Origin: Aquila chrysaetos chrysaetos
Taxonomy: Eukaryota; Chordata; Aves; Accipitriformes; Accipitridae
Direction of reading: 5' to 3'
NCBI RefSeq assembly: GCF_900496995.4
Contig: NC_044024.1
Coordinates: forward strand, 2,170,001 to 2,234,000
DNA: 64,000 nt
This document shows, piece by piece, positions 1,809 through 40,453 of this stretch; positions within the stretch are counted from its first letter, which is position 1, and every line of letters begins with the position of its first letter. Position numbers and translations under genes: made by a program. The notes under the pieces were generated by a model. It had not been told where the DNA came from, ran no database searches, and saw only the letters and a program-made list of their open reading frames with translations.

Positions 1809-4800
1809 GTTGGTACCGGTGGGGGCCTCCCCCCCCCATACCTACCCCCCCAACCCCAAGCCACCCCCCTCCCGGCCCGGCAGCCTCCCGAGCCGTCCCC
1901 CTCCCGTTTCTTTTTCCCGCAGAAAAGCGGCCTAAAACCGGCACCGAGAGCCGGGAGGCGGGGGCCGGGGTGCAGGTGGAGTTGCAGGGCTCCGAGCTCT
2001 GGAGGAGGTTCCATGAGATCGGCACCGAGATGATCATCACCAAGGCCGGCAGGTACCGGCTGCACGGCCGCCCCTCTGCCCCCCCCTTCCCAGCGCCGAC
2101 GGCCCCTTTGCCCCCTCGCTCGTTCGGTTTTTCTTTTTTTTTTTTTTTCATCGTGGCTTTGCTTTTTCTTTGTGGTTTTTTCTTTTTTATTTTTTGGTTG
2201 GGATATTTTTCTTTGTTTGCCTTTTTTTTCTTTCCCCCGCTATTTTTGTTGAGTTTGATTTTTTTTTTTCCCTCCCCATGGACGTTTAGCTGTTGTTTTT
2301 TTTTTTTTCAACCCCTTTTCGCCGTTTAACCGGCAACTTTTGCTCAGGACCTTCCCCCTCTGCCCGCAGGAGGATGTTCCCGTCGGTCAGGGTGAAGGTG
2401 AAGGGGCTGGAGCCGCTGAAGCAATACTACATCGCCATCGACGTCGTGCCGGTGGACTCCAAAAGATACAGGTACGGGCCCGGGGAGGGGGGGGGACACA
2501 CACCGGCGGGGCAGCCCCCCCCCACCCCACCCACGAACACCCCCCGTACCCACGAACACCCCCCCCACCCACGCGGGATCCCTCCTGCTGCCGTCTGCTC
2601 AGTCCCATCAGTGCGCCTATGTGAAATAGGGGTTGCACAGACATGGGGAGAGGGAGGGGGGGGAACTGCCGGGCTGGCATGGACGTATAGAATCTATAGG
2701 TGTGCGGGGGGGGGGTGTCGGGGAAGGGGTCTCCGCCGGCTGACCGCGGTCCGGCCCGGGCCAGGTACGTCTATCACAGCTCGCAGTGGATGGTGGCGGG
2801 GAACACGGATCACTCCTGCATCACCCCCCGGCTCTACATCCACCCCGACTCCCCCTGCTCGGGGGAGACCTGGATGAGGCAAATCATCAGTTTCGACCGG
2901 GTGAAGCTCACCAACAACGAGATGGACGACAAGGGGCACGTAGGTGTGGGGGGGGTCGGGGCAGAGCATCACCCCAGCCAAGGCGGGGGACCGGTCCCTC
3001 TTGCCCCGGGGCTGAGGGCTGGCTCCCACCCGAGTCTCCCATCGGGTTTTCCTCCTGCCTTTCTCCCTCTGGGGGGGGGGCTCAGCCTGCCTTTCCCCCC
3101 CCCCCCCCCGCACAGATCATCCTGCAGTCCATGCACAAGTACAAGCCCCGCGTCCACGTTATCGCCCAGGACTCCCGCTTCGATCTAGCGCAGATCCAGT
3201 CGCTGCCGGCCGAGGGGGTGCACACCTTCTCCTTCCAGGAGACCGAGTTCACCACCGTGACGGCTTACCAAAACCAGCAGGTACCGGGGGGGGGCCGGGA
3301 TGGACACCCCCGACGGTCCCGGGGACCGGGAGGAATGGAGAACCCCGACGGTCCCGGGATCCGGGAGGGATGGAGAACCTCGACGGTCCCGGGAGGGATG
3401 GAGACCCCGACGGTCCCGGGATCCGGGGGAGGATGGAGACCCCCGACAGTCCCGGGGACCGGGAGGGATGGAGACCCCGACGGTCCCGGGATCCGGGGGA
3501 GGATGGAGACCCCCGACAGTCCCGGGGACCGGGAGGGATGGAGACACCGACGGTCGCGGGGCTCTGGGGGGGGGGATGGAGAGCCCCGACGGCTGCGGCG
3601 GTCGGTGCCGGCCCCCCCGCACCCCAATGGCCCTTTATCCCCCCCCCTCCCCAGATCACGAAGCTGAAAATCGACAGGAATCCCTTCGCCAAAGGTTTTC
3701 GGGATCCCGGCAGGAACAGGTAAGGGCCGGGACCACCATCCCCCCTCCTCGTCGGGCCGCCGGCCGCGCCGCGGCGCTTAGCCCGGTCTTCCCCCCCCCC
3801 GTAGGGGGGTCCTGGACGGGCTCCTGGACACCTACCCGTGGCGGCCCCCCCTCGCCCTGGATTTCAAGGCTTTCGGCGCAGACAGCCAGGGTAAGTCCCT
3901 CTTGCTGCCATTTCTCCTACCCCGCCTCTCCCCGCCGCCTCGGGGCTGCGCCGCGGCCGCACGGCCGGAGCTCTCCGAGGGACCGGGGGGTCTTAAACCA
4001 TTAAGATGACAGAGGTGGGTCCAGAAAAAACGAACCGGCGGCCAGCGTAACGTTTTGGGAAGCCAATTCTACGTGTTTTCAGGCAAAACTCCTGTTAAAA
4101 TGGATTTGGGGAGCGGAGGACTCGGCCCGGGAAGAGAAGGGTACCGGCGCGGTCTGCCTTCGTCGCCTGGCAGAAATCGGATTTAGCGGGGCAGAAAAAA
4201 AAATCTGAGTATGCAGGAGGCTGGTTTAGAGTCGGGTTGTTACGGCTTTGATCCCGTTACACTAATTGTTTCTAACAATTTTGAGAATATTAGCTAAAAC
4301 CGCGGTCATAATGACCGCCGGGGTCCTCTGCAGCCGGCGGCTTCGGTGCGAGCAAACGCGTTGTGCGCCAGAAAATAAAATTATCAGCTCTTTAGGATGG
4401 AGCAGTCCCACAGTCTGTTAACTCCGCAGGAATGCAGGGAAGAGGGAAAAGTTTTTCAGGGAAAACCATCTCCCGCTGCCTGACAAGCGCCCGTCGGTCT
4501 CTTACAGGACTTTTTGCAGAAAAAAAAGGCTTTTGGAAGTATTATTTGAAAACTGATTATTCATAGCGCTGAAGGAAAAAACTAACAGGGCATTTGCAAG
4601 CTGGAGCGCTCCAGTTTGGGTTTAAAGTCGCTGGTTTAACTCCCATTTCTGTTAGGAACTCTTCAAAATATTGGGGCACACCAAATCACTCCTGTCTCTG
4701 CGGGGAAATACTGCAAAAATCCCAGCAGAAATCCATGTGGTACAGGCGCAGAAATGTGGAGACATTAAAAAAAAACAGACTTGGGAGAAATTAAGAGGTT

Positions 4801-32707: not shown

Positions 32708-35700
32708 CTGCAGAATTGTAAAACACAAAGAAACCACCTGTCAGTAATATGAAAATTAACTTTTGCAAAGTTCTGCAATGGTCAAGCAATCTCATGTTCA
32801 GATGATATGAAATTATCTCATGTGCAAGTCTTAACAAGATTTGCTTAAGACCTCAAGAATGGCTGTACCAGCTGAGACCAGAGTCCATACAGCTATATTA
32901 TCTCCAGCAGTGGATACCTAGGAAGGAGTTTAAGAACATGGCAAGTAGAGATAGGGTTGGGTTTGTTTTTTTCTTAATATATCATCTTTGCAAGTGCAAA
33001 TCAGCTCTTACAGAACTGCATCCTTATTTGGGTGCAGCCTTGACTGACCAAGGCTGGTATCCAACTGAACTGCTACAGCGAGATAGCAGTAGGTCTAACT
33101 GTTTTAGGGGGCCTAGTACAAGGTGAAACTGGACTTTTCAAAGAATGGGGAATATATGGGGCTTCCCAAAGATTGGTCAGTTAAGACAAGGCTTCCTAAA
33201 GCCTTCTCTGCAAAGATGGGATGACAGGAATAAACTGTACTTTTTCCATTCCCTCAAATATATTCCCCTAGAATGGAAAAAGCAACTCACCAAAAGATTT
33301 GTGCAACCTTGACATCAGGATCCGCTCATACACAAGAAATTCTAAGCCATTCATCTAGAGCAAATGTGGAATTCTTTGCACTAGTCCCGTAAGACCTTTC
33401 ACACGTTAAAGGGAAGGAAAATAAGACCCCAAAGGCCTCGTGTATGCTATGGGAGATAGCTGGATTCATTAAATTTGGAGTAGGTAGGAGAGCCAACTGT
33501 TTGCAACTCCGTGAAATAACCATGCAAAAATACACCTCAAACAGCTAAACTTTCTGGATTTACCAAGCAGACAAATGTATTGTTAAAATTATTTTGATTG
33601 CAAGACTGTTTTAACTACACACTATTTCTTTTGGACACCTTATATCTAATTACAATTTAGCAAGTCTGTTTTGACCGAGCGAAGCATTAATTCTCACACC
33701 ACTTTTCTCTAGAAAACACTGATTTCAATTGAATCTAATGTTTACCTGTTCTGCTGAGGCAACACTTGTACCAACAGAACCTGTCTGTCCTTGAGGTAGT
33801 TCCATGTTCAGATCAAGACTAATAGGAGAAAACAAAACAAAACCAAACCCAAGTCAGGCATACATGGCTAAAGGAAGAAGCACAATAATTGACAAGCAGG
33901 GGAATAGTGAGGTAGCATGAGGCCACCAGCATCCCATGAATGCTGTACTCCAGCTAGTTAGACAACTTGATCAGTAAATTTGACTCATTACCAAGAAAAC
34001 AAGTCATATATTATAATTAACAATAGCTAAACGAATTCTGCTTAATCAGGACTCAGCAAGATTGCTGTTTAACAGAGGTATATCAGACATGGCATACATA
34101 TGAATGACAAAAAGTTCACTCATGGAAAAAAAAAGTTTTACTAAAAAATTTGTCACAAGTATTTATCCTCAAGCCAACAGAGCGACACTTCCAACTTATG
34201 CGTCACCAAGAAGGCAAGTAAAATTCTCTGAAATAATTCAGTATATCCCCAAAGGCTTAAATATGTCATGACAACCTGTTTTGCAATGTCTAGCTTGTGA
34301 GAGCAGAACTACAGGAAGTTTTAATGTGGTAAGAGGGGAAAAAAGGAAAAGTGTGCAGAAACATGGCAAGGACTGCTAATGCTAAAGCCAATCCAAGTAA
34401 ATAATAAAATGCTACCCTGACATGACAAGTGACATATGATTTTAGGCTCGTGCACAACCATCCCTGCATCCTGACATTCACAGTAGCTTTGAGTGAAAAC
34501 AGAATGAAATACTGGCAACTAAACTATTACGAGAATAATGTCCACAGGTGAAAGGAAAATGGTGATTCTGCTCTGCTTCCAAGAGACACACATATAAAAC
34601 AACGGTATCTGACCTTCAAGTTGACCAGGAATGGTTATTGGGACCAAGATTTATTCAAGAAATAGTCACTCAAAATTTTACCTACCCTGCTTCATCTGCC
34701 ATTTCCTGTAGAAGCATATCCACTTGGTTCTAGAGTAAAGAAAACAAAATTGATCGTTGCATGTTGTAGTTTCTGACAACCTTTTCTGTTAAATCTTGAG
34801 AGAGCAGAAATTATTTTAACAAAACTGATTTAAAGGTAAATGGCTTTTACAGAACATTTTTGTGCTTAACCACCAGAGGGCCCTGTATGAACTCAAAAGT
34901 AACGTGTAGAGGAGCTCAGCCTGTTAAAATCCCATTAATTGAACTCTAGCTTCTGAAATAATGCTTCTGAAGAATTAAAACTTATCTGTAAAAAAACCCA
35001 AACATATACCTGAATATTTCAAGTGTTGCCTACTAGCTACTAAAACACTGCTTTGCACAACATGGGAAAAAGCCCATCTCCAAATAGATTTGGTTTATTG
35101 GATTTGGCTTTAGGTTTGTTTGTTTATTTTATTCACAAAGCACTATCTCCAGTAACTTTCTCTCTCTGACAAAACTTCTGTTGGAATAGCTCCTTGTGGA
35201 ATAGCACAAGGGGATAGGTGCTAGGAATTTTCTTAACTATGTCAAGCACTGTTTAAAAGATTTATTTTAGTAAACACGTCCATAAATTGAAAGTAGGTAA
35301 TTAACAACCTTTCTATTCCATATACTACTACTAATTTGGTGGTGACTAATGTCTTTTTGTTAATATCAGTGAGTTAGAACTATTGATTTTCTCACAGCAT
35401 ATCCTGCTTTGATAATTAATGCTGCAGTGTGTTCTGGTTCAGAAGTTCATTGAGAACTCATCAAAACGCTGCTTATTCAGTAAGAGGATTAAAGTTTTCA
35501 ACATATAATATAAAATAAAGCCTGCTATAAGAGTGAAATAGACTGAAATACATATACATGGATCCTCTGTGCTTGTGACTGTCATTTTAAAGTCTCTTCA
35601 TCACAAAGAAGCACAAAGGAAAAGTAAAAAGGCTTCAGTTGCTGCTATGTCTCAAAGTAGGCAGAAAGAAGAGAATCACACATTTCCATGCAGTTTAGAC

Positions 35701-38700
35701 ACATAATTTAAGATCACCCTTTTTAAAAAAAATGTACTATTCTTACTTGTGGTGTTGTCAGCGTAGTAGTGTTGCTCATTGTGTCTTCCATCTGTTGTGT
35801 CTGAACATCTAGTGTTTCAAACTGATGCTCAAATTTATCCATTAGTGCAGATATCTATAAAAAAAAATTGAATCAAATCAATGATCTGCAGATAATGGAA
35901 CGAGAAATATATCTCAACTGGCAAAGAAAGAATCACACTACAAGGGCAAGCAGCTTCTGGAGATCAGAAGCTTGTCCCCATCCCCTCCCAGCATCAACTC
36001 TGAAGTTGATCTAACACAGTTCAAGCACATTGGTCAGGGCCCTGCCCAGGTTCCAGGATCTACCAACCTCACTGCAAAACCTTTTCTCTCGATTGGAATT
36101 TCCCTTTTCAAAACTTGTGTCCATTGCCCTTTCTGCTTTTTGGTGTGCAGCTCCAAGAAAAGTAAGACTATTTACCTTTTCCAAGTTCATGCTCTTGAGC
36201 GTGGCATCCATAGACTTAACTACCCCTGCCATCGACTTCGTTACCTGAAATGAGGTAAAGGAAATTATTACAAAGAAAGAAAAATGACCAGTTTCTTACC
36301 AAGCTCTCTTATGTCTATCCACAGAGTTTCTAAAGTATCAAATAGCAGGGCACACACGATTGCCATCTAGAACACCTTTTTTATAGCTCCTATCATTTCA
36401 AATTCTATAAATTAACTCAACCACTTGAAATATGCATTCTGAGCTGAAATTTGCTACGAACCGAGGTATATATGGCATTAACTGTTGTAGGTCTCGAGAC
36501 CTGTCAAGTGTTAAGGTATATATTTGGCATACAGATCATATGGCAGAATAAACTCTCTGGCTGAAGAGCAGTACAGTAGCATACCTTAAAAAACTACCTG
36601 AGCTAAAAAAGGTTTCTGGAATCACAAGTCCTACACCATGACTTTTTGCAAAGATACTGCTCCCCTTCAAAATACATGATAATCTTAAATGTAACCAGTA
36701 AAACACACTGTATCCTTACGAGCATGAGTAATAACAGCTCACAGAAGTTACTAGCTACAAAACATAGTGGATAGCAATCTACTTTTAAAGAGCAGCTGCT
36801 GGGGCAGGGGGGATTCCAGTACCTGATTTACTGTTGGTTACATCTGAAACCAAATGAGCTGAAAAGTTTCAGTTTATAGATAGAATTAAGTCACTTCTAA
36901 GAAGAACAGAGGTCTCATCCTTGCAACAGATTTGTGAAAACAGACTTACCTTGCCCATTGTCACTGCAGTCTGAACTCTTGCTGCTACAGCATCTACCCG
37001 GGCACTCATGCGCAAGAAATTGATGGCTTGATTCTTCTGGCGGATTGCATTTTCCGCATGTATTCGTGCGACTTCCATGTTGCCCTTCTGAATTGCCTAT
37101 TGAAAAAAAGAAAAGAAAAAAAAAAGGAAAAAGAAAAAGCATTTTAACCTTCCCTGCTCTTGTAAACATGATTTCTGAATAGCCTATTTCATTTTTTAAA
37201 TAAGCATCAATTCATCACAATATCTTTTCTATTAAAAGATAAAATAAAACCCGCCCTCCTCCCCCAATAGTTCCCAAACTTTTTCATTATGTGAACCCCT
37301 AGCTTCTTTCCAAGGAAGGTATCTAGCATGCACTTCAAGTAGAAGGTTTTACAGAGCTATAGAAACATACTTTTCTCATTCATAAAAACATTTTCAGTAT
37401 CAAGACCCCAAAAGATACAGTTGGTATGGTTGTATCTCATGGACAAAAATACAGTCAAATAAATTTAGCCTCTCTTTACTACTTCAAGGACTCAAAAACT
37501 ATTTTCAAGTTCCTCTTCATAAGTTCTTTTAATACAAGATGATAAACATTAAGATTAAATATTTTTAACTTTGAGAACAACAGTCTCTAACAAAATACAT
37601 ACAAGACAAGCTTCTCAGGAAGCAAATGCCACAAGCTGTACAAAAGGATACACAAGAACATATCCTCACATTTATTAATAAGTATGGGAAGATTTACAGT
37701 CATGTATTTTAAATCACAAGCATCTATCATGGTATTATTAGCATGCATACCAGGAAAATGGCAAAACCACCAGATATCTTCCTGCTACAATATGTAAACA
37801 ACAGACCCAAAGAGCTTGTTTCAGAGCCACTGCTTACCTTCTTAATTTTAGCTTTCTCAGCCTTTTCTTCTTTGTCGCATTTTTTTGAGTTCCTGTTGAG
37901 TTCCTTTGCAGCAAACTTCAAATTAAACAGATGTTCTGCAGCACAAGTTAAGGGCTCAAGAACAGGATCTATCCTTTCATCGTAGTATTTTGCTCTCCTG
38001 TTTGAAGTGCTACCAAACCTAGCGTATACTGTGTTTCCCCATCAGTGGTATTAAAACTTGGAAAATGTTATTTAAGTAAGCCCTTGAAATTCTCACAATA
38101 AGGAGACCTACTAAGCTGCTTTACAATTATAATGCCACTTACCATCTGAGTTCTAAAATGTGAGGCCATAAAAAGTAAGTTCAGATCCCAAACTGGCTCC
38201 ATTTAACATCAAACCTACTTCAGACTGATAAACACAACAAACCAAACATCGCTGAAGAGGAACTGCAAGCCTTACTCTACCGCCTACTTTCACTTACACA
38301 CCCAGAGTCCTTGACTCTCAGTGAAATGGAAGTGCAGTTTGCTGGCCTGCCTGGAACCTCCCCATCCAAAAAAAAAAAGCCACTGAGGAACAAGCCAAAT
38401 TAACAGTGTAATAGCAAACTGGCTTGACTGACCATGCCCAGGTACAAACCAGGAGGCAGGGCTGCCCTTTCAAGCCACAGTATGATCTTGGGTTTAAATT
38501 GCTCATGCAGCTCCTTTACAGAGCAGCCTCCCAGCCCTGGGTCATGTGAGCGATTCTGGGGTCCCTGACAGCTCTGTCATCTGACTTTTGGGGAGAGAAT
38601 ACTTAAGTCAGCAAGAGAAACTTTTCTTTTTGTAAAGCTCAAGTCCTGCTTAAGCTGAAAGCTCTAAGAAGACAGTAGAACAAGCCTTCACAGTGACTTA

Positions 38701-40453
38701 GAATGATTGCATTAAACTGTTACTGACAAAGTATGTGCTGTAAAAATAACAATTAAAAAACCATACTCTTAAAATACTGTTGATGAAAGCTTCCAAATAA
38801 TAATATCAGTCTTTCTCAAACAAAATAGAAGTACAAAGCTTTATAGGCTTCTTTCATGCCACCTTCTGATATCCCAAGAGGAAGATGCAGCAAGTACTAA
38901 GATGCTTAACAGTTAAGTGGAAGCACATAAAGCTAAACATTATAAGGTACTTGAGGCTTCTTTAATATTTCAAGTATATAAATTATTCCAGAACTGTTTG
39001 GGTTTTTTTTTCCCTCTAAAGCCCAGCCATGCATCTCAGAGCTCTGACAGCAATCTGAAGACATTAGGAAGTCTGTTGATGCATTTGTTATCCTATCCTA
39101 TAAACATCACAAGCAGGCTACAAAAAGGCAACAGCTGTGCCTATACACCTAGGACATCTAGTAAGGTAGCTACCAGTAACGCTAAAATTGCTGCTTGTGT
39201 TTACATTTCTTTGCTTTAAAGCCTAGGTCACCATCTCTTTCAGCAGCAGTAAGCGTACTGCACTGAGCCACAGATTAGGTAATTTGCCAAACAGGAAAAC
39301 ACCTTTAAGTTGTTCATTGAACAGTACACTTCAGGTCAGAGACCAGACCAACCAGGTAAAACATGACATCACCTATTTACAGCCATTGCACTGAAACAGC
39401 ATTTCAGAGCACTTTATTCTGAAATAACTTCCTCAGTTACTCACTTGGGACATTTACCTCTGACATTACAATAGCTCGCCCCGCCACCTCCACAGCCCTC
39501 CCACCCCATGATGAGCACTTACTCGCTCCTCCCTTGAAGTGCCTTTCTCAATGTGCCATAACCCGAGTGAAACCAGACTCCACCATCAACCGTGACTCAC
39601 AGTCACCTGCTCCAGCACTGCTACTGGTCCCTGCCATAACAACTGGCAATGCCGAGCACTGCCAGCTCATTTAAACCACACCGAGACCTCTGTAATCTTT
39701 AAGGCTTTTTTTGCCCCAGCGCATTACGATAGTTTTATACAGCAAGGAAGTTTAAATTTGCCCACAAGGGTTTTCCCCACGTGCAACTTCTTTTCTACAG
39801 CAGGAAACAGCTGGGTTTATTCAGCTGACAGCAGCTGCTATTTGGGGGGACGGCTGACGAGTCAGCCTTACTGACATCATTCCAGTCTGTACAGAGCGCT
39901 GGATGTATGGCATGTCAGATGTCCGCGGTGCACGCTTTGCACTGCTCTACGCTGTAAATTGCTTTTTCTGCCCCAGGGGCTGGGCTGTCCCTCCGTGCAC
40001 CACAGCCTTCCCACCCCAGCTGAGGTTAGCTGATCTTGCCTTGGAAAGTGAAACCGAATTTCCCATTTTCTTCTCCATCCACGCAGAGAGGACAACCCCC
40101 CAGTTTATGAAAGCGCAGCTCCTGTCCCTGTCACGCCCGTCACTCCCACCCTCCTCCTCCTCCTCCTCCTTCTCCTCCCTCAGGAGCCAGGCCTCCGTCC
40201 CCCACCGACCCCCGCGGTCAGGGAAGGGACTCCCTTCCTCCTTCCCCCTCACCCCGGGCGGAGAGGCCTCGCATCCCACCCCCGCCCCAGGGCCAGACCG
40301 GCTCTCACCTCGACCCGGCCCCCGCCGAGCCCAGGCCAGGCCGGGCCGGGCCGGGCCGGGCCCTCGCCCCCAGCCCAACCCAGGCCGCACCGCCTCACGG
40401 CGGGGCCACAAGGACAAGACCTGCGCCCCGAGGATACTCTCCATGTTGGACAT
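32663..40453 (-). CDS. CHMP1B: Charged multivesicular body protein 1b, CHMP1B (8 coding exons)
   Basis: CHMP1B is an ESCRT-III subunit that polymerises on membranes in multivesicular-body sorting, cytokinetic abscission and tubule scission. It also recruits MIT-domain proteins such as VPS4, spastin and LIP5. The joined minus-strand CDS is 40453-40438, 37935-37838, 37096-36950, 36244-36176, 35854-35747, 34729-34686, 33818-33746 and 32707-32663: 600 bases, 199 residues plus TAA, the same length as the human protein. Visible are the basic N-terminus [18 protein letters not shown], the charged ESCRT-III core (about residues 1-145) and the C-terminal MIM1 helix [14 protein letters not shown] (186-199) that docks on MIT domains. 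Only a handful of residues differ from the human protein as I remember it. All phases agree, and every donor and acceptor is GT/AG. The functional human CHMP1B is a single-exon retrogene elsewhere, so this is the ancestral intron-containing locus. It lies tail to tail with TBX22. Confidence 0.96.
32860..33000 (+). mobile_element. Decayed CR1-like LINE 3' fragment, tentative
   Basis: The stretch from AGAATGGCTGTACCAGCTGA through AGTGGATACCTAGGAAGGAG and AAGAACATGGCAAG resembles, from memory, an old sauropsid repeat. That repeat is seen in turtles and crocodilians with wording close to 'atggccatactgggtcagacc ... agtggccag'. It lies in CHMP1B intron 7. It is heavily diverged, and the family is not certain. 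Confidence 0.4.
33746..33818 (-). CDS. CHMP1B: CHMP1B coding exon 7
   Basis: Completes Gly161 and encodes [15 protein letters not shown] and GTSVASAEQ (162-185). Acceptor CTATTAG|TCTTG, donor GAACAG|GTAAAC. Confidence 0.96.
34686..34729 (-). CDS. CHMP1B: CHMP1B coding exon 6
   Basis: Encodes [14 protein letters not shown] (147-160) plus two bases of Gly161. Acceptor CTCTAG|AACCAA, donor GCAGG|GTAGGT. A 44-base exon; the phase matches exon 7. Confidence 0.95.
35747..35854 (-). CDS. CHMP1B: CHMP1B coding exon 5
   Basis: Encodes [18 protein letters not shown] through [11 protein letters not shown] (111-146, 36 codons). Acceptor TTATAG|ATATCT, donor CCACAA|GTAAGA. Confidence 0.96.
36176..36244 (-). 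CDS. CHMP1B: CHMP1B coding exon 4
   Basis: Encodes [20 protein letters not shown] and LEK (88-110, 23 codons). Acceptor TTTCAG|GTAACG, donor GAAAAG|GTAAAT. A GTAA immediately inside the exon start also looks donor-like but is coding. Confidence 0.96.
36950..37096 (-). CDS. CHMP1B: CHMP1B coding exon 3
   Basis: Encodes [20 protein letters not shown] through [13 protein letters not shown] (39-87, 49 codons). It is preceded by a long pyrimidine tract and TCAATAG. Donor GGCAAG|GTAAGT. Confidence 0.97.
37838..37935 (-). CDS. CHMP1B: CHMP1B coding exon 2
   Basis: Completes Lys6 and encodes [20 protein letters not shown] and [12 protein letters not shown] (7-38). Acceptor TGCTGCAG|AACATC. There is no pyrimidine tract before it, but a U12-type branch motif lies 12 bases upstream. 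Donor AAGAAG|GTAAGC. Confidence 0.97.
37947..37953 (-). promoter_or_regulatory. CHMP1B: U12-type branch-site motif CCTTAAC
   Basis: On the minus strand CCTTAAC matches the core of the minor-spliceosome branch consensus TTCCTTAAC. The branch A would be at 37,948, 12 bases from the intron end, which is the tight spacing expected of U12 introns. Confidence 0.75.
40148..40180. repeat. (TCC)n trinucleotide tract
   Basis: An imperfect run of TCC units in CHMP1B intron 1, near the CpG island. Confidence 0.85.
40334..40363. repeat. GGCCR pentanucleotide repeat, 6 copies
   Basis: Six tandem 5-mers (GGCCA, four GGCCG, GGCCC) inside CHMP1B intron 1, about 70-100 bases downstream of exon 1 on the minus strand. 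Confidence 0.9.
40430..40437 (-). promoter_or_regulatory. CHMP1B: U12-type splice donor GTATCCTC
   Basis: The CHMP1B exon 1 donor reads GAGA|GTATCCTC. The U12 GT-AG consensus is GTATCCTT, so seven of eight bases match. As a U2 donor it would be poor. Confidence 0.78.
40438..40453 (-). CDS. CHMP1B: CHMP1B coding exon 1
   Basis: Only 16 coding bases: ATG (complement of 40,451-40,453), S, N, M, E and one base of Lys6. Joined to exon 2 it gives MSNMEKHLFNLKF, as in human. The start codon has a strong GCCGCC context. Its short length explains why it cannot be found as an open frame on its own. Confidence 0.95.

Follow-up and report, generated by a model that had tools for sequence, protein, structure and literature searches.

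The CHMP1B locus

The window, that is, the whole 64-kb stretch of Aquila chrysaetos chrysaetos DNA that was analyzed, carries CHMP1B on its minus strand as eight coding exons, running from 40453 down to 32663 and encoding a product of 199 residues (Table 1; slashes in nucleotide strings mark splice positions). The predicted protein aligned with solved CHMP1B chains over residues 1-199 to 1-199 without a gap (E ~1e-117), hence a full-length match, and it contains a Snf7 domain (Pfam, 57.7 bits). At the left of the window, a T-box domain (Pfam PF00907) lies on the plus strand at about 2700-3188. We take this neighbor of CHMP1B to be TBX22-like, and the human counterpart of the neighborhood is presumably at Xq21. 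Rfam at gathering thresholds returned no match within the 64-kb window, and tblastn searches for CHMP1 relatives in viral and genome contig collections without vertebrate relatives returned none.

Intron 1 splits the sixth codon of CHMP1B (A/AA, Lys) after its first base, and is the only phase 1 intron among the seven introns of the gene. We joined, in turn, each GT between the start codon and a point near the 3' end of intron 1 (167 sites) to the exon 2 acceptor, and a single site, at 40437, yielded the known N-terminus MSNMEKHLF. We also searched the genome (1.23 Gb in 144 contigs) with an 87-residue query. The best candidates scored gave three matches, two of which were exons of CHMP1B and one CHMP1A; there was one CHMP1B locus, and no intronless CHMP1B copy was found among these matches.

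Table 1. Coding exons of CHMP1B and putative splice signals of its first intron, in window positions.
Feature	Position	Strand	Remark
CHMP1B coding exon 1, ATGTCCAACATGGAGA (MSNME + first base of Lys6)	40438..40453	-	N-terminus identical to solved CHMP1B chains
CHMP1B intron 1, 2502 nt, phase 1, putative U12-type GT-AG	37936..40437	-	
Putative U12-type 5' splice site GTATCCTC	40430..40437	-	7/8 to GTATCCTT
Possible competing U2-type donor GAG/GTGAGA	40303..40308	-	same phase, open frame, 129 nt downstream of U12 donor
Putative U12-type branch core CCTTAAC	37947..37953	-	branch A 12 nt from last intron base
3' splice site AG of intron 1, CTGCAG/AACATCTG	37936..37937	-	
CHMP1B exon 2	37838..37935	-	
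CHMP1B exon 3	36950..37096	-	
CHMP1B exon 4	36176..36244	-	
CHMP1B exon 5	35747..35854	-	
CHMP1B exon 6	34686..34729	-	
CHMP1B exon 7	33746..33818	-	
CHMP1B exon 8, through stop codon	32663..32707	-	

Splice signals of CHMP1B intron 1

The initial annotation had proposed that intron 1 is a minor-spliceosome (U12-type) intron whose donor matches seven of the eight consensus bases. This match was confirmed, and the position of the intron, from 40437 down to 37936, proved exact. The sole departure of the donor, A/GTATCCTC, from RTATCCTT is a C for T at +8. Scored as a U2 donor, the same site obtained -1.0 bits, and the donors of introns 2 to 7 obtained 11.0, 12.7, 9.4, 8.2, 8.0, and 7.8 bits, respectively; all six are ordinary, as had been claimed for the remainder of the gene (neither the U2 donor matrix nor the U12 consensus GTATCCTT was taken from a published matrix file). 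Towards the 3' end, the branch region reads GCCCTTAAC, then TTGTGCTGCAG. Here the CCTTAAC core of the initial annotation is present, and its second A, the putative branch A, is 12 nt from the last intron base, and thus in the ~10-20 nt range from the AG expected of a U12-type branch. The match to the full branch consensus TTCCTTRAY is 7/9, with an exact core preceded by GC, versus TT in the consensus. The intron ends with CCTTAACTTGTGCTGCAG, the last bases being GAGCCCTTAACTTGTGCTGCAG, and its acceptor has a weak pyrimidine tract. A loose branch count alone is not discriminating since the U2-type intron 3 contains TTCCTTTAC, which matches 8/9 of the branch consensus versus 7/9 for intron 1. 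In the list of the seven best branch matches, the CCTTAAC core is exact in that of intron 1 only. Minor introns are described as avoiding phase 0 (PMC7367187, PMC10639083), and those in phase 1 as tending not to have a purine at -1 (PMC7367187); contrary to the latter bias, CHMP1B intron 1 has A at -1.

The genome also holds genes for U12 (149.5 bits), U6atac (134.4 bits), and U11 (110.7 bits), each over cut-off. Its U12 gene has GAGTAAGGA, of which GTAAGG is complementary to CCTT(A)AC at 6/6 positions with one bulged A, while the preceding base (C) is unpaired. Its U11 gene begins with AAAAAGGGC, and AAGGG near this 5' end can pair with four of the five bases of the donor TCCTC, with one wobble. 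Two weaker U6atac matches (L006 and L007, on G000:C2 and C13; 39.9 and 35.5 bits) are perhaps pseudogene copies.

Next, we estimated how often such signals arise by chance. Counting both window strands, 41 of 6396 GT sites, CHMP1B intron 1 included, matched the donor at 7/8 or better; the figure for first-order Markov sequence was 322 of 64513. The CCTTAAC core lay 9-21 nt upstream at 4 of 8923 AGs in the window, again with CHMP1B intron 1 included, as compared with 72 of 89182 for the Markov sequence. Assuming that donor and branch are independent, their joint chance is ~4e-6 per intron and ~3e-5 over seven introns, under a null of random GT/AG sites, not of real U2 introns; the chance was counted per intron because the protein fixes the intron ends. 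Genome-wide, a relaxed short-intron pattern, GTATCCTC..CCTTAAC..AG, was not enriched (11 places vs 32 in a backwards control). We therefore rejected the motif pair as proof by itself, and regard the gene context and the gene model as essential to the U12 call. One of the 11 places (L024) passed a crude coding check that asked for at least 35 open codons before and at least 20 after the pattern in one phase; it has 90 and 30 open codons, and by eye its translation resembles no recognized protein. A strict U12 pattern, used as an in-genome positive control, occurred at two places vs none in the backwards control. One of these (L011) is at no coding junction, and the other (L012) joins open frames of 436 and 115 codons at the predicted junction. 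The latter (G000:C101:127993-128072, minus strand) is probably a U12-type GT-AG intron of 80 nt, contains TTCCTTAAC, and sits at a coding junction of a gene that we take to be SET/NAP-like.

Collectively, the donor, the branch, their spacing, the reading frame, and the finding of three of the four minor-spliceosome snRNAs support the proposed class well, and CHMP1B intron 1 is very probably a genuine U12-type GT-AG intron. It resembles other vertebrate introns of this type in its GTATCCTY donor, its CCTTAAC near the AG, its phase 1, and its place as one minor intron among major ones.

Upon inspection of the downstream sequence, we noted a U2-type donor, GAG/GTGAGA at 40308, that scores 9.7 bits with the same U2 matrix and would add 43 residues after MSNME. 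Of the 11 donors of at least 6 bits that were listed for the stretch, no other is both in phase and open in frame. An equal or better in-phase open donor occurred in 30 of 2000 Markov-generated versions of this sequence. The score, the matching phase, and the open frame would suit a reading in which the major spliceosome removes intron 1 from 40308, CHMP1B carries the 43 extra residues, and the U12-like donor is a coincidence. The additional stretch, however, is 81% GC, and the solved chains of CHMP1B and CHMP1A lack it, hence this donor is probably unused; we rejected U2 splicing from 40308 as the main reading. That reading would also have to accommodate an acceptor whose pyrimidine tract is weak and whose U12 branch core is exact, and a U12-junction protein that matches the N-terminus residue by residue; we consider it extremely improbable. 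Both donors are in frame with the one acceptor, and both could be used, as in a twintron, so that the nested U2 donor would give a minor, N-terminally extended isoform and soften the dependence on minor splicing. Vertebrate twintrons are described (PMC3564746), and CHMP1B resembles the spliceosomal twintrons of prospero and of vertebrates in having an in-frame U2 donor inside a U12 intron. A twintron uses both site classes at one intron position, whereas the U2 donor of CHMP1B is a candidate site, and its extension is GC-rich; we judge such dual use to be very unlikely. Were it used, the in-frame donor 129 nt downstream might permit a partial bypass of minor splicing.

The same intron position in CHMP1A

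We then compared intron 1 with its counterpart in the paralog CHMP1A (L002; G000:C9). The product of a six-exon CHMP1A model matched a solved CHMP1A chain over residues 1-189, gapless from the first residue (MDDTLFQLK), the last coding part lying outside the model. Exon 1 of CHMP1A ends with ATGGACG and exon 2 begins with ACACGCTCTTCCAG. Asp3 of CHMP1A and Lys6 of CHMP1B occupy one alignment column, and both introns follow the first base of the codon (phase 1), so the junctions in this column read ATGGACG/AC (CHMP1A, U2) vs ATGGAGA/AA (CHMP1B, U12-like). Two more intron positions are common to the paralogs, after AKIKK/AKVKK and after TVTMGK/TVTMKG, and the others differ. The CHMP1A exon that follows intron 1 is only 20 nt long. 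The donor of CHMP1A intron 1, G/GTAAGG, scored 9.2 bits as a U2 donor with this matrix and 3/8 in the U12 donor count. The intron itself (L002 322-532, 211 nt) contains the pyrimidine tract CTCCTTCCCTTCCAG, and CCTTRAY is absent from all 211 nt. Thus, CHMP1A shares the position of intron 1 and is of the U2 class; as a paralog, it neither refutes nor confirms the U12 assignment that the initial annotation made for CHMP1B. Since CHMP1B intron 1 has minor signals and its CHMP1A counterpart ordinary ones, removal of intron 1 probably calls for a different spliceosome in each of the two genes.

Because the CHMP1A intron sits in the same codon and the same phase, intron 1 probably predates the CHMP1A/CHMP1B duplication, with one copy having switched class. 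For the direction of this switch, we infer as the likeliest course that an ancestral U12 intron became U2-type in CHMP1A and was kept as U12-type in CHMP1B. The reverse history, in which the ancestral intron was U2-type, CHMP1A kept the ancestral state, and CHMP1B acquired U12 signals, would bear on the past of the intron only, not on its present class. A difference in class between paralogs at one position is what such a gain would leave, and one U2-to-U12 case, in flies, is reported in print (PMC2831892). The same source, however, treats U12-to-U2 as the likelier direction of conversion, mainly among GT-AG introns (PMC2831892), and a gain would need two signals, donor and branch, to arise; we regard it as unlikely. 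Conversion of a U12-type ancestor in CHMP1A may also be viewed in light of a proposal for phase 0 introns, according to which G at -1 eases conversion to U2 (PMC7367187). The Asp codon of CHMP1A places G at -1 of intron 1, which recalls this proposal, its application to the phase 1 intron of CHMP1A being our own extension. The pair resembles known homologous introns that converted from U12 to U2 in sharing codon and phase while differing in class, and differs from them in that here both classes occur in paralogs of one genome and the direction is our reading.

Proposed minor-spliceosome dependence and the human retrogene

In the mechanism that we propose, U11 and U6atac would recognize the donor GTATCCTC of CHMP1B intron 1, and CCTTAAC would base-pair with U12. 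Splicing to the AG 12 nt past the branch A would link MSNME with KHLFNLKF. With a U12-type intron 1, full-length CHMP1B should need the minor spliceosome, and it is reasonable to suppose, in line with the initial annotation, that CHMP1B production depends on this machinery in this lineage; intron 1 of CHMP1A would impose no such need. Among the papers listed by literature searches, none was on the topic of CHMP1 genes and minor introns; U12DB, IAOD, or MIDB may have a row for bird CHMP1B.

The initial annotation had further suggested that the intronless human copy escaped this dependence. Human CHMP1B is described as an orphan retrogene whose parent became a pseudogene in the lineage ancestral to Old and New World monkeys, the multi-exon parent being still active in rodents (PMC5408686); mouse Chmp1b is elsewhere treated as a retrogene (PMC3080381). 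The escape is consistent with this published account (PMC5408686) and may reasonably be supposed: if intron 1 of the mammalian parent was U12-type, the retrogene did away with the dependence, and mammals in which CHMP1B exists only as the retrogene would have no need of the minor spliceosome to make it. The gene is the same in both lineages. In the human line, the multi-exon parent has given way to its intronless copy, whereas the eagle genome keeps the multi-exon gene with its putative minor intron, and an intronless copy was not found among the best candidates scored.

Two routes of minor intron loss are named in print: a cDNA may recombine with the locus, or the intron may convert to the major class (PMC6865273). 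We lean towards the view that a retrogene replacing its minor-intron parent is a route of shedding the dependence that surveys of orthologous introns miss. Birds would represent the state with the U12 intron, mouse the state with both parent and retrogene, and monkeys and apes the state with the intronless copy only. CHMP1A would have shed its U12 signals by class conversion, so that one ancestral minor intron would have been escaped by two routes across this pair of ESCRT-III genes.

If these proposals are true, a bird ESCRT-III subunit would be under the control of the minor spliceosome and its human form would not. Human cell models of minor-spliceosome disease would consequently miss the CHMP1B dependence. 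Similarly, since human CHMP1B has no introns, catalogs and conservation figures built up from human minor introns presumably cannot include this intron, whereas a mouse or per-species catalog of minor introns could include that of the CHMP1B parent. CHMP1B intron 1 would then be a further U12-type case, given added interest by its class-discordant paralog and by the retrogene, and CHMP1A and CHMP1B would form a natural pair in which, within a single genome, a single ancestral intron is served by two spliceosomes.
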